Assembly (NCBI RefSeq): GCF_023111095.1
Contig: NZ_JALGYW010000013.1
Location: 62,001 to 126,000, forward strand
Source: Maribellus sp. YY47
GTDB taxonomy: Bacteria > Bacteroidota > Bacteroidia > Bacteroidales > Prolixibacteraceae
Length of the DNA stretch: 64,000 nt
Reading direction: 5' to 3'
A program made the translations under genes and the position numbers. The notes under the pieces were generated by a model. The model was not told where the DNA came from. It made no database searches and saw nothing but the letters and a program-made list of their open reading frames with translations. Positions 16,632-21,212 of this stretch are shown here, in pieces; within the stretch, counting starts at the first letter, position 1, and each line of letters starts with the position of its first letter.

Positions 16632-17549
16632 CTAACTGATTTCGTCGAGATTGTACGGAGTCTCCTGGTAAACGTAATAGTTCAGCCAGTTAGAAAAAAA
16701 CAGGTTGGCAGTGGATTGCCAGCGCATCAAAGGTTTCTCCTCCGGATTATCTTCGGGATAATAGTTCACCGGAACTTCAATCGGAAGGTTTTTTGCTTTG
16801 TCGCGGTGGTATTCTCCATCGAGCGTATTTCTTGAATATTCGGCATGCCCGGTAATAAAGAGTTGTCGTCCGTTCTTGGCTTTCACAATGGTTACACCGG
16901 CTTCCGAAGAAGAAGCTACAATTCGAAGTGCATCTACTTTTTCAACGTCTTCGGCCTTTATCTCTGTGTGGCGGGAATGAGGAACAAAAAACTCATCGTC
17001 GAATCCCCTGAATATCGGCAGGTTATCTTCGACATGTGTATGTTTGAAAACTCCGAACATTTTCTTATCCAGCGGATATTTCGGGATACCGTAATGATGA
17101 TATAATCCGGCTTGGGCGGCCCAGCAAATAAACAGGGTTGAAGTTACATGTTTCTCGGCCCAGTTCATTATCACCTTCATTTCCTCCCAATATTTCACCT
17201 CTTCAAAAGGAAGTTGCTCCACCGGTGCACCGGTAATGATCATGCCATCGTATTTCTTATCTCTGAGCTCGTCAAAACTCCGGTAAAAAGCCTTCATGTG
17301 CTCCAATGATGTATTTTTTGGAGTGTGCCCTTTGATTTTTAAAAAGTCGATCTGAATCTGTAACGGAGAGTTCGACAACAAACGTAGCAAATCCGTCTCA
17401 GTGGTTATTTTCAAAGGCATAAGATTCAGAATAACAATCTTTAACGGCCTTATATCCTGATGAGAGGCACGTGATTCGTTCATCACAAAAATGTTCTCTT
17501 TCTCCAGTATTTTTATGGCCGGCAATTTATCCGGAATAGTCAATGGCAT
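16632..17549 (-). CDS. metA: Homoserine O-acetyltransferase (MetA family)
   Basis: A 305-residue MetA-type acyltransferase: catalytic Cys142 in [15 protein letters not shown], and His235/Glu237 in GHAEYSR, exactly at the family positions. Residue 111 (TGAPVE) is glutamate; in this family Glu111 goes with acetyl-CoA and Gly with succinyl-CoA, so O-acetylhomoserine is the predicted product. That fits the upstream metY, which uses O-acetylhomoserine with sulfide to make homocysteine. A stable intercistronic hairpin (17571-17624) precedes the start by 22 bases. Confidence 0.93.
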
Positions 17550-17636: not shown

Positions 17637-19001
<1,365 letters not shown>

Positions 19002-19021: not shown

Positions 19022-20338
19022 TTATCCAAAGAATGCACTGTAAATTTCCCGAACGCTTTTTTCTTTATCTGACTTACTAACGATCAGATAGCTAACCAAA
19101 TCGGAAGCACCAGAACCGCTGATCACAACATTAATTTGATTGTTGGCAACGGCAGTAAAAATTTTAGCAGAAACGCCGTAAGCGTGCTGCATTCCGTGCC
19201 CGACAATTCCAATCAGTGAAAGGTCTTTTACAACCGATATATCGGTTACCGACGAAAATCCCATTCCGTTGACCAGCGAGAGTGCTTTATCTCCGTTTTT
19301 TTCACTTAAAATGAAGTTGATCGAAGTTTGTGAAGTAATTACTGATTTTATGTTAATACCGGCTTTGTTCAGCTGTGTTGTTACTCGAGCCAAAATCCCG
19401 GGTTTCAAACCAACGCCTGGCCCATCCAGTTTCAACAATGAAATGTCATCGGTGCAGGCCACACTTTTAACAATCTGGTCTTCGATAAACGTTTCTGTAT
19501 TGATGACCGTTTCCACCTTTCCTTCTGAGGATGCAGCACTCAACACTTCAATCGGAATATGAGTCCGTTCCAGAGGCTCCACTGTTCGCGGATGCAACGA
19601 ATAATGATCGAAATAGGCCAATTCGCTGGCTTCGGAATAGGTTAAACGTTTGATCACTTCCGGGCTTTCAATAATCCAAGGATCGGCCCGTTGAAAATCA
19701 AAATCCAGTCCCCACAATTCGAGTCGTTCTACACCCAGTTCACGTGTCAGAAATGCAGCAGTATAGTCGGCCGAAGTTTTCCCGGTACGCGCAATTTTCT
19801 TGTTTTCTGCAATACCATAAGTTCCGGGAATAATGAAGTTTCCGTTTGGTAACGATTTTAAATAAACGCTGTCGACCGAAACAAAGGATGCATTTCCATA
19901 GTCGGATGTGGTCTGCAACGCAATTTGCTCGGGTAAAAGAACCTGTGAATCGGGCCAGATGGTCTTCACAATTTCCACTGTCAGCTTTTCGGAAAAGCTC
20001 AGCACCTGGTCTTTCAGCGCCCTTGAATAATCGCCGATCAAAGCAATTCCTTTTAACAAACCACTGGCCTGCTCCGCCAGTTGATGGTAAGAATCACTCG
20101 CTTCTTTTTGGGTAATATTACGGTGCACCGAAAGCAGCTGAGTCAGCAATGCATCATGGTCGGGTTCCTTTTCCAATACTGTTGCCATATTAGCACTTAG
20201 TATTTCCAACAACTCAGGCACTGCTGAAACCACTATAAACCTGCGACCAACGAAATGGTTGAGGTATTTTGTCAAATGAACGATCGATTCAGAATTGCCC
20301 AGATGGCTACCGCCCAATCGAATAACCTTATCCGACAT
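19022..20338 (-). CDS. Aspartokinase-like protein with C-terminal ACT domains
   Basis: A 438-residue protein aligned end to end with monofunctional aspartokinases, which phosphorylate aspartate as the first step to Met, Thr and Lys. Recognisable blocks are SDYGNASFVSVDS, SADYTAAFLTRELG, SEASELAYFDHYSLHPRT and two ACT domains from about 290 (LKLDGPGVGLKPGILARVTTQL). The canonical KFGGTS is replaced by RLGGSH (Arg7 in place of the lysine), and the GRGGSDYTA loop by TGKTSADYTA, so activity could be altered. First gene of the met operon, behind a leader peptide and attenuator, so expression is probably tied to methionine. Confidence 0.82.
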   Translation of the reverse strand: MSDKVIRLGGSHLGNSESIVHLTKYLNHFVGRRFIVVSAVPELLEILSANMATVLEKEPDHDALLTQLLSVHRNITQKEASDSYHQLAEQASGLLKGIALIGDYSRALKDQVLSFSEKLTVEIVKTIWPDSQVLLPEQIALQTTSDYGNASFVSVDSVYLKSLPNGNFIIPGTYGIAENKKIARTGKTSADYTAAFLTRELGVERLELWGLDFDFQRADPWIIESPEVIKRLTYSEASELAYFDHYSLHPRTVEPLERTHIPIEVLSAASSEGKVETVINTETFIEDQIVKSVACTDDISLLKLDGPGVGLKPGILARVTTQLNKAGINIKSVITSQTSINFILSEKNGDKALSLVNGMGFSSVTDISVVKDLSLIGIVGHGMQHAYGVSAKIFTAVANNQINVVISGSGASDLVSYLIVSKSDKEKSVREIYSAFFG

Positions 20339-20396
20339 ACGAATTATGTTTTTAAGTAAAAAATCAATTTGTTTTTAAACGCTCAGGTACGAAAAT

Positions 20397-20429
20397 GCCT
20401 TCAATCAACGGAAACCATCGAATGAAGGC
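20397..20429 (-). terminator. Attenuator hairpin upstream of the met operon
   Basis: On the minus strand GCCTTCA (20429-20423) pairs with TGAAGGC (20403-20397); inside, CGATGG pairs with CCGTTG around a TTT loop. ATTTTC follows, a weak T-tract. The 5' arm starts at the last base of the leader-peptide stop codon, as expected for ribosome-controlled attenuation. The preceding CTTCATTC (20427-20420) can alternatively pair perfectly with GAATGAAG at the leader start (20523-20516). Confidence 0.6.
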
Positions 20430-20521
20430 TAGCGCATAAACATAGAAACCGACGACATAAACATGGTGCCACAGTAGTTTACTGTAACTCTCAAAATGCT
20501 ATTTCTGAAATCCATCTTCAT
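20429..20521 (-). CDS. Candidate Met-rich leader peptide of the aspartokinase-metY-metA operon
   Basis: A 30-codon frame from ATG 20521 (or ATG 20515, with AGGA at 20525-20522 correctly spaced for it) to TAG 20431-20429. The last 12 residues are TMFMSSVSMFMR, with four Met codons close to the stop. A perfect ACAGTA-AAC-TACTGT hairpin (20485-20471) lies in its middle and could pause polymerase. It is followed at once by the attenuator stem. The arrangement fits a peptide whose translation senses charged tRNA-Met. No homologue could be checked. Confidence 0.6.
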   Translation of the reverse strand: MKMDFRNSILRVTVNYCGTMFMSSVSMFMR

Positions 20522-20542
20522 TCCTGTCGATTTTGTTTGGCT

Positions 20543-20572
20543 CAAATATACTGGGATTTTTTAATCCGACAA
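20543..20572 (-). promoter_or_regulatory. Promoter of the met operon
   Basis: -7 TATATTTG (20550-20543) with CTTGTC near 20573-20568 at -33 spacing. Transcription would start around 20536, leaving a ~200-nt leader that holds the peptide and attenuator. Confidence 0.5.
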
Positions 20573-20689
20573 GCCTATTTAAAATGAATTCAGATAAATT
20601 TCACATTGGATATTTATTCATATGATTCTTCAATTGAAAATCCAGAAGTCGATTTTACTTCGATTCTACAATATCTGTATCCTCAAAAG

Positions 20690-20718
20690 TTGCAAATCTC
20701 AAAACATTTGTATTTTTG
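20690..20718 (+). promoter_or_regulatory. Promoter of the marR-type gene
   Basis: -7 TATTTTTG (20711-20718), 5 bases before ATG 20724, with TTG at 20690-20692 about 18 bases upstream. The short distance predicts a leaderless mRNA and shows that the in-frame extension to 20622 is not translated. Confidence 0.5.
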
Positions 20719-20723
20719 TTCGT

Positions 20724-21212
20724 ATGGAAACTACTGATATCCTGATTAAAATACGCAAGATTGTCCGGTCGATCGATATTGAATCCAAAAAGATTCAAAA
20801 AGATTACGGGGTAAGCATTCCGCAGGTGCTTTGCCTTAATTATTTGCACCAGTCACCCGGTTACCGGTCAACACAAGGAGATATACGTAAGTTTCTGAAC
20901 CTGAATCCCAGTACCGTTAGCGGAATTATCGATCGGCTGGAAAGAAAAGGCTACCTGGCCCGTTTGCCCAAACTTGGCGACAAACGGGTGGTAAACATTG
21001 TACTGACTTCTTCGGGAGATAAACTTTTAAAAAGCATTCCGGAACTTTTGCACATGCAACTTTCAGAGAAGCTCAAACTTCTGAAAGAAGACGAATTACG
21101 GGTCGTTGAGTCGGGACTAAATATCCTTATCGGCATTCTTGATATTGACACCCTGGAAGCTTCGCCAATGCTTACTTTAGAGGATGGCCTGGAAGAAATT
21201 GCAAGCGAATAG
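20724..21212 (+). CDS. MarR family transcriptional regulator
   Basis: From ATG 20724 (METTDILIKIRKIV) the product is 162 residues, a normal MarR size. The winged helix reads YRSTQGDIRKFLNLNPSTVSGIIDRLERKGYLARLPKLGDKRVVNIVLT, with the DNA-recognition helix and wing basic motif (GDKR) intact. It is divergent from the met operon and convergent on the GH15 gene (9-base gap). The nearby trehalose/acetyl-beta-lysine genes make it a candidate osmotic-stress regulator, but this is inference from position only. Confidence 0.88.
   Translation: METTDILIKIRKIVRSIDIESKKIQKDYGVSIPQVLCLNYLHQSPGYRSTQGDIRKFLNLNPSTVSGIIDRLERKGYLARLPKLGDKRVVNIVLTSSGDKLLKSIPELLHMQLSEKLKLLKEDELRVVESGLNILIGILDIDTLEASPMLTLEDGLEEIASE

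Follow-up and report, generated by a model that had tools for sequence, protein, structure and literature searches.

The aspartokinase-metY-metA operon of Maribellus sp. YY47 is preceded by a short, Met-rich leader frame whose stop codon abuts a hairpin, an arrangement that recurs ahead of aspartokinase in almost every Prolixibacteraceae locus compared. On the strength of this comparison, which bears directly on the frame, its Met codons, the hairpin with its position and the association with SAM-I aptamers, the leader is probably a cis-acting methionine sensor that would read Met-tRNA through the ribosome, with the hairpin set against the last Met codon.

The leader locus and its conservation in Prolixibacteraceae

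The window, that is, the whole stretch of 64,000 nucleotides that was analyzed, contains the following features of the locus, given in the direction of transcription.

20575 to 20597, minus strand: operator-like stretch TTATCT...AAATAG, upstream of the promoter, a block conserved in 29 genus members
20543 to 20550, minus strand: promoter-like box TATATTTG, 21 nt upstream of the leader ATG, which we take to be of the Bacteroidota -7 promoter type
20429 to 20521, minus strand: leader peptide frame of 30 codons, reading MKMDFRNSILRVTVNYCGTMFMSSVSMFMR, with stop codon TAG
20432 to 20467, minus strand: terminal Met cluster TMFMSSVSMFMR, with Met at codons -11, -9, -4 and -2
20397 to 20429, minus strand: hairpin GCCTTC...GAAGGC, whose first base is the G of the TAG stop
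20339 to 20396, minus strand: spacer of 58 nt between hairpin and aspartokinase start, without conserved structure
19022 to 20338, minus strand: aspartokinase, with AA_kinase and ACT domains (Pfam)
17637 to 18980, minus strand: metY, Cys/Met metabolism PLP enzyme (Pfam)
16632 to 17549, minus strand: metA, homoserine O-succinyltransferase family (HTS, Pfam)

An earlier note on this DNA had described a Met-rich frame of 30 codons ahead of a methionine operon and a hairpin abutting its stop codon, and both descriptions hold. The first hairpin base, which is also the final base of the stop codon, lies 91 nt ahead of aspartokinase and at +9 counted from the A in the last ATG. With four Met residues in its last 12 codons, the leader is alone among 951 frames of 15–60 codons from the whole window and both strands, a count that runs from the first ATG, GTG or TTG to the stop and therefore includes the leader in a longer form of 38 codons. 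Folding of the 221-nt leader, the check put forward with the original description, gave -63.8 kcal/mol (z -4.5), and none of 200 shuffles was as good. That no SAM riboswitch is visible here was also correct: none was found in the window, nor in its whole genome at E 0.001. A MarR-family regulator gene (20622 to 21212, plus strand) lies divergently and adjoins the leader.

A search for aspartokinase covered 140 genomes of the family; for 70 of these, counting the window's own, the DNA upstream was read (30 loci plus 40 regions). The family set was judged to include Sunxiuqinia, Mangrovibacterium and Gaoshiqia, and NCBI likewise places Sunxiuqinia in Prolixibacteraceae. Leader frame and hairpin stand ahead of aspartokinase in 69 of the 70 loci, own locus included; the sole exception, L050, whose gene start is uncertain, is without the leader element. 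The strict hairpin CCTTC-loop-GAAGG is present in 59 of the 70, and in 56 of these the stop codon lies immediately 5' of the stem. Nine further loci show the same arrangement with GGAGG, GAGGG, AAAGG or a longer loop, and L037 combines a leader ending MPMCM-stop with an AGTCTTC/GAAGACT hairpin. At three loci (L030, L031 and L033), the leader stop has been lost and the frame continues into the hairpin, which is kept. By eye, the order aspartokinase-metY-metA is preserved in eight operons from six other genera.

Copies beyond this set were sought in several ways. Covariance model R1 listed one match in the own genome and, across the order, matches in 27 of 393 genomes (E 0.01, strict filters); among the 24 loci read, six outside the family lie ahead of met genes (L081, L082, L087, L090, L092 and L093), one (L080) belongs to genus g8, and the remaining 17 were judged by eye to be chance matches. 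A pattern scan of named genomes returned 16 loci, two of them chance matches in coding regions of Methylotenera and Acinetobacter; L112 ends at the locus edge, and L114 contains no aspartokinase frame of 80 aa, its start being visible all the same. A pattern search of the 393 genomes produced ten matches, of which L122 lies inside a frame without met context. Within the own genome, the pattern AGCCTTC...GAAGGC matched twice, once at the leader, and the reversed control matched nine times, so the pattern alone says nothing about further copies there.

Codons of the leader and the placement of the hairpin

The codons at the end of the frame carry Met in fixed positions. Among the 59 strict-hairpin loci, codon -2 is Met in every one, the search pattern not having asked for ATG, and codon -4 is Met in 57; together with the 69 of 70 loci that keep the arrangement, these counts answer the question raised by the earlier note, whether relatives retain the frame, its Met codons and the hairpin, for nearly all of them. 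A non-redundant set of 27 family leaders that stop with TAG, collected with a pattern that itself requires ATG at -2, has Met at -4 in 24 members, at -9 in 18 members and at -6 in 13; codon -3 is variable (Ser, Phe, Cys, Ile and others), and 23 of the 27 carry Arg or Gln at codon -1. Single-base codon differences among these leaders are synonymous in a share of 0.31 against 0.20 expected, the pairs not being independent of one another. The three leaders without Met at -4 are those of genus g8 (three genomes; L044, L045 and L046/L080), in which Thr and Ile codons replace most Met codons, as in TITRTSISML-stop; their hairpin start and operon are unchanged, and a SAM-I aptamer lies upstream. Such a replacement with the hairpin kept is what a codon sensor allows, and the g8 leaders possibly represent a natural switch of codon specificity.

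Across the 69 family leaders, the stretch of 48 nt behind the last Met codon folds with a mean z of -4.66, compared with -0.16 in a downstream control, and the first paired base falls at +9 from the last ATG in 45 of the 69. We scanned the start of the best hairpin by its distance from the last ATG, scoring the excess over shuffles in three sets of leaders, and +9 showed the largest excess in each. The values were -16.1 against -1.8 kcal/mol in shuffles for 37 non-redundant aspartokinase leaders, with a mild bias from an anchor pattern that requires pyrimidine-pyrimidine-T behind the stop; -5.5 against -1.4 kcal/mol for 16 Prolixibacteraceae leaders ahead of HcyBio-like genes; and -5.7 against -1.6 for 35 leaders of other lineages, where the excess is broad to +12 and a mild bias comes from four leaders found via a model that includes the hairpin. 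In this last set, a start at +3 is equally low in energy (-5.8 against -2.9 in shuffles), and the strongest hairpin begins at +3 to +5 in 14 leaders and at +9 to +12 in 10. In 12 of the 16 HcyBio-like leaders, an unrelated GCGGT...CCGC hairpin encloses the region of the stop codon, which ties the hairpin to the Met codon and not to the stop.

Stems differ altogether across lineages, and the hairpin loses strength beyond the family: 19 SAM-I leaders of the order gave a median z of -0.5 and a mean of -1.24. Compensatory variation of the stem had been named as a mark of a functional hairpin; the hairpin is indeed constrained, but compensatory change in the family's lower stem is slight, this part being nearly invariant, with one pair changed on both sides and 14 of 500 shuffles as high in a set of rows mostly selected by stem sequence. 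Two other details noticed at first are real in the window but local to it and a few relatives among the 65 leaders with an identified start: the AGGA ribosome-binding site, since a Shine-Dalgarno-like site occurs in six of them, own included, and the 8-base match between the 5' arm and the start region, which reaches at least 7 bases in 12, own included. Pairing with the start region was accordingly rejected as a conserved, mutually exclusive structure.

SAM-I aptamers ahead of related leaders

Leaders ending in MPLMPMCMR-stop, or close to it, were found in other families of the order, ahead of metY, metH, aspartokinase and metX, by means of a covariance model of the leader and DNA patterns. 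When 20 leader sources were scanned with Rfam (L082 and L116 being the same locus, as are L092 and L117), 19 carried a SAM-I aptamer upstream, the exception being L093, ahead of metH. The downstream genes are methionine and sulfur genes, assigned by Pfam for the window, one metH, one metY and the HcyBio composite and by eye for the rest; metX (L092/L117) was recognized by eye from a 100-residue fragment without a Pfam match, and with 22.4 bits, the fragment of L105 taken for aspartokinase stayed below the cut-off of 24.9. The HcyBio-like assignment refers to PF01837, found with a composite query.

An independent survey that set out from SAM-I gave matches in 43 of 149 order genomes, 64 of 140 family genomes and 177 of 247 class genomes. 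The DNA behind the aptamers was read for all 48 of the order, for the best-scoring 30 from the 64 family genomes with matches and, as a control, for the best-scoring 30 from the 177 class genomes with matches. A short frame with its start 8–16 nt downstream accompanies 32 of the 48 aptamers of the order and 25 of the best-scoring 30 of the family, compared with one of the best-scoring 30 of the class. Met-x-Met occurs within the last 14 residues of the frame behind 18 of the 48 order aptamers, 20 of the best-scoring 30 family aptamers and none of the best-scoring 30 class aptamers; 14 of the 32 short frames of the order are without it. Where ATGNNNATG occurs behind the aptamers, it stands in the frame of the ATG 8–16 nt downstream, with frame counts of 20:2:1 in the order and 24:0:0 in the best-scoring family set, and none was present in the best-scoring 30 of the class control. 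T runs of at least 6 without such a frame follow seven of the 48 order aptamers, none of the best-scoring 30 of the family and 20 of the best-scoring 30 of the class; in the order, the leader frame often stands where the T run would be.

A gene's own start lies at the distance of the leader ATG behind three of the 48 order aptamers and two of the best-scoring 30 of the family. This points to an action of the aptamers on any start codon placed behind them. At five loci (L135, L143, L146, L190 and L199), a SAM-I aptamer stands 11–15 nt before the start of a metH-like or HcyBio-like gene, without a leader, and translational control is probable there. Most of the loci L178 to L207 pair SAM-I with a leader containing ...HGANMCMR.. 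ahead of HcyBio-like genes in Prolixibacteraceae. Of the family loci read, those of genera g8 and g17 have SAM-I ahead of the aspartokinase leader, which begins 11 nt behind the aptamer in g17 and, in two g8 cases, 16 and 21 nt behind it. The remaining copies among the best-scoring 30 of the family mostly lie ahead of HcyBio-like genes.

In most aspartokinase leaders of the family, a promoter-like box occupies the place of the aptamer. Of the 69 leaders, 63 have TAnnTTTG 60–160 nt ahead of the last Met codon, 58 of them at 104–115 nt; shuffles gave 4.1. The six leaders without it are five g8/g17 leaders and L037, for which no SAM-I aptamer was found either. Read from these sequences, loss of the aptamer with retention of the leader would be the simplest history of the family aspartokinase leaders.

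This distribution raises the prospect of a two-input regulator of methionine genes, a tentative proposal to which we give slightly less than an even chance. SAM-I would work neither through a terminator nor on the start of the gene itself but on the leader start codon 8–16 nt behind it, so that SAM would decide whether the sensor is translated, and the leader would count charged Met-tRNA with Met-x-Met codons placed opposite a hairpin at the mRNA entry, which would decide how the ribosome behaves on it. The proximity of the leader to the aptamer is what suggests that SAM would gate leader translation wherever SAM-I stands just upstream. Before aspartokinase-metY-metA, a promoter would later have replaced the aptamer in most family members, the ribosome sensor alone being kept. 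Combined in this way, aptamer and leader would form a naturally occurring circuit, the riboswitch gating a sensor borne by the ribosome, with SAM and Met-tRNA reported separately; since leaders of this kind occur both with and without the aptamer, the two inputs would be separable by ordinary reporter fusions.

Proposed mode of action, alternatives and known systems

By general ribosome geometry, a hairpin starting at +9 from the A of the codon in the ribosomal A site would lie at about +12 relative to the P site, close to where mRNA enters the ribosome. We infer translation of the leader, sensing of tRNA, gating by SAM and the direction of the response. The leader peptide would be translated first, up to its last codons Met-x-Met-(mostly Arg or Gln)-stop. 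When the last Met codon occupies the A site, the hairpin would have its base at the mRNA entry, and the dwell time at the Met codons, set by the level of charged tRNA-Met, would therefore decide whether and when the hairpin forms or opens, and with it the expression of aspartokinase-metY-metA, which would be higher when Met is short. Were the hairpin to stay free during stalls at the first Met codons and to be opened by passage of the ribosome, it would serve as the ON structure under starvation; should the stall at the final codon alone matter, it would serve as the OFF structure. Rho-dependent termination, mRNA stability and translation of the first gene are the candidate outputs.

The same ending might instead be an arrest peptide, for which TnaC, arrested with Trp, is the model: a nascent M-P-x-M-x-M-C-M-R would bind methionine or SAM in the tunnel and stall the ribosome at the end of the frame. 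In several families, MPLMPMCMR retains its Pro, Leu, Cys and Arg, and outside Prolixibacteraceae this conservation could point to a specific nascent peptide and not to a codon count; the invariant Met at -2 and the usual Arg or Gln at -1 would fit as well. However, the MPMCMR set was partly found by patterns requiring those letters, residue -3 and others vary within the family, and the forms behind SAM-I (MRMR, MGME, MDMH and MVMH) share only Met-x-Met. With the exchange of Met for Thr and Ile in g8 added to these points, arrest by the nascent peptide appears unlikely.

We consider classical attenuation, as the earlier note had proposed it, very doubtful. The hairpin would then be an intrinsic terminator whose 5' arm is covered by a ribosome stalled on the Met codons. 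The GC-rich stem and the TTTT behind it are present in the window, and a stall at the last Met codon would place the ribosome over the arm; stalls at earlier Met codons would, by the same geometry, leave the hairpin free, so the simple covering model does not carry over to the whole Met cluster. Nor is the T run a conserved feature: at least 6 T in the 9 nt after the stem occur in three of 59 leaders, and a terminator scan of 20300 to 20800 called no terminator. Related bacteria do use T-run terminators, as the 20 of the best-scoring 30 SAM-I copies of the class indicate. Intrinsic termination by this hairpin is unlikely on these grounds. A classical 3:4 hairpin downstream was rejected as well, no conserved structure being present between leader and gene: in the 45 of 69 leaders with a clear gene start and stem, mean z was +0.26 for the spacer and +0.46 with the 3' arm included. 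Rfam gave no match at the leader at gathering score, and a T-box leader (RF00230) was rejected at 16.1 bits against a gathering score of 93 (E 0.21 in a permissive search).

That the ATG triplets form an RNA element binding uncharged initiator tRNA or a protein, with the frame incidental, is highly implausible: the SAM-I neighborhood and a known SAM-I platform sensing uncharged tRNA-fMet (PMC7270179) speak for it, but ATGNNNATG stands in the frame of an upstream ATG in 44 of 47 cases (order and best-scoring family sets), the frames are open throughout the family with synonymous changes in excess, and the Xanthomonas element, according to the available text of that source, from which the term 'leader peptide' is absent, has no use for the anticodon.

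A sensor of Met codons read by the ribosome, the reading we favor, would have relatives among the trp, his, leu, thr and ilv leader peptides, which are ribosome-mediated attenuators of amino-acid operons. It shares with them a short frame rich in codons of the product, an adjacent hairpin and a biosynthetic operon downstream. Unlike them, it uses the Met codon, has neither a T-run terminator nor a conserved alternative hairpin among the structures found, keeps its hairpin fixed at +9 of the last Met codon, and in relatives often stands behind a riboswitch. That riboswitch, SAM-I (S-box, RF00162), lies directly upstream of such leaders in other families, at HcyBio-like genes and in g8 and g17, but is absent from the window and was not found in its genome at E 0.001.

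As described in the available text, the Xanthomonas SAM-I element binds uncharged tRNA-fMet directly, without need of the anticodon, and senses SAM too (PMC7270179); it is likewise a leader of the Met pathway with two Met-related inputs, but there the RNA binds the tRNA directly, whereas here decoding of Met codons in a frame would be the sensing step. One published riboswitch works together with translation of an upstream frame; its ligand and phylum are different, and its abstract does not speak of Met-codon sensing. To judge from the accessible portions, PMC7270179, PMC11260477 and PMC9373788 are the nearest in logic. The Cys leader peptides of Mycobacterium, in the parts of PMC1262725 available, also have pathway codons near the stop and no conserved terminator hairpin, and their authors point to Rho; they differ in carrying Cys codons and no conserved hairpin. 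The same portions report no conserved RNA structure upstream of methionine operons in Actinobacteria (PMC1262725). Within Bacteroidota, excerpts describe leader-like short frames in B. thetaiotaomicron (PMC7366714) and clues of leader-peptide attenuation in Flavobacterium (PMC9723704). The open-licence literature searched yielded no case of methionine being sensed by a leader peptide, no methionine leader peptide in Bacteroidota and no combination of SAM-I and leader peptide. According to the part of PMC3155529 available, Bacteroidetes are generally without Shine-Dalgarno sites, and a family-wide Met leader free of a terminator would show how Bacteroidota use ribosome stalling.

A further layer of control may lie upstream. 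In 29 members of the genus, the window's own locus among them, the leader promoter is immediately preceded by the conserved, operator-like block TTTATCTAAAnTCATTCCAnATAAG, and a transcription factor acting there may add a second regulatory layer. By a loose pattern, the inverted repeat in this block is present in 20 of the 29 genus members and in six of 33 other family members.
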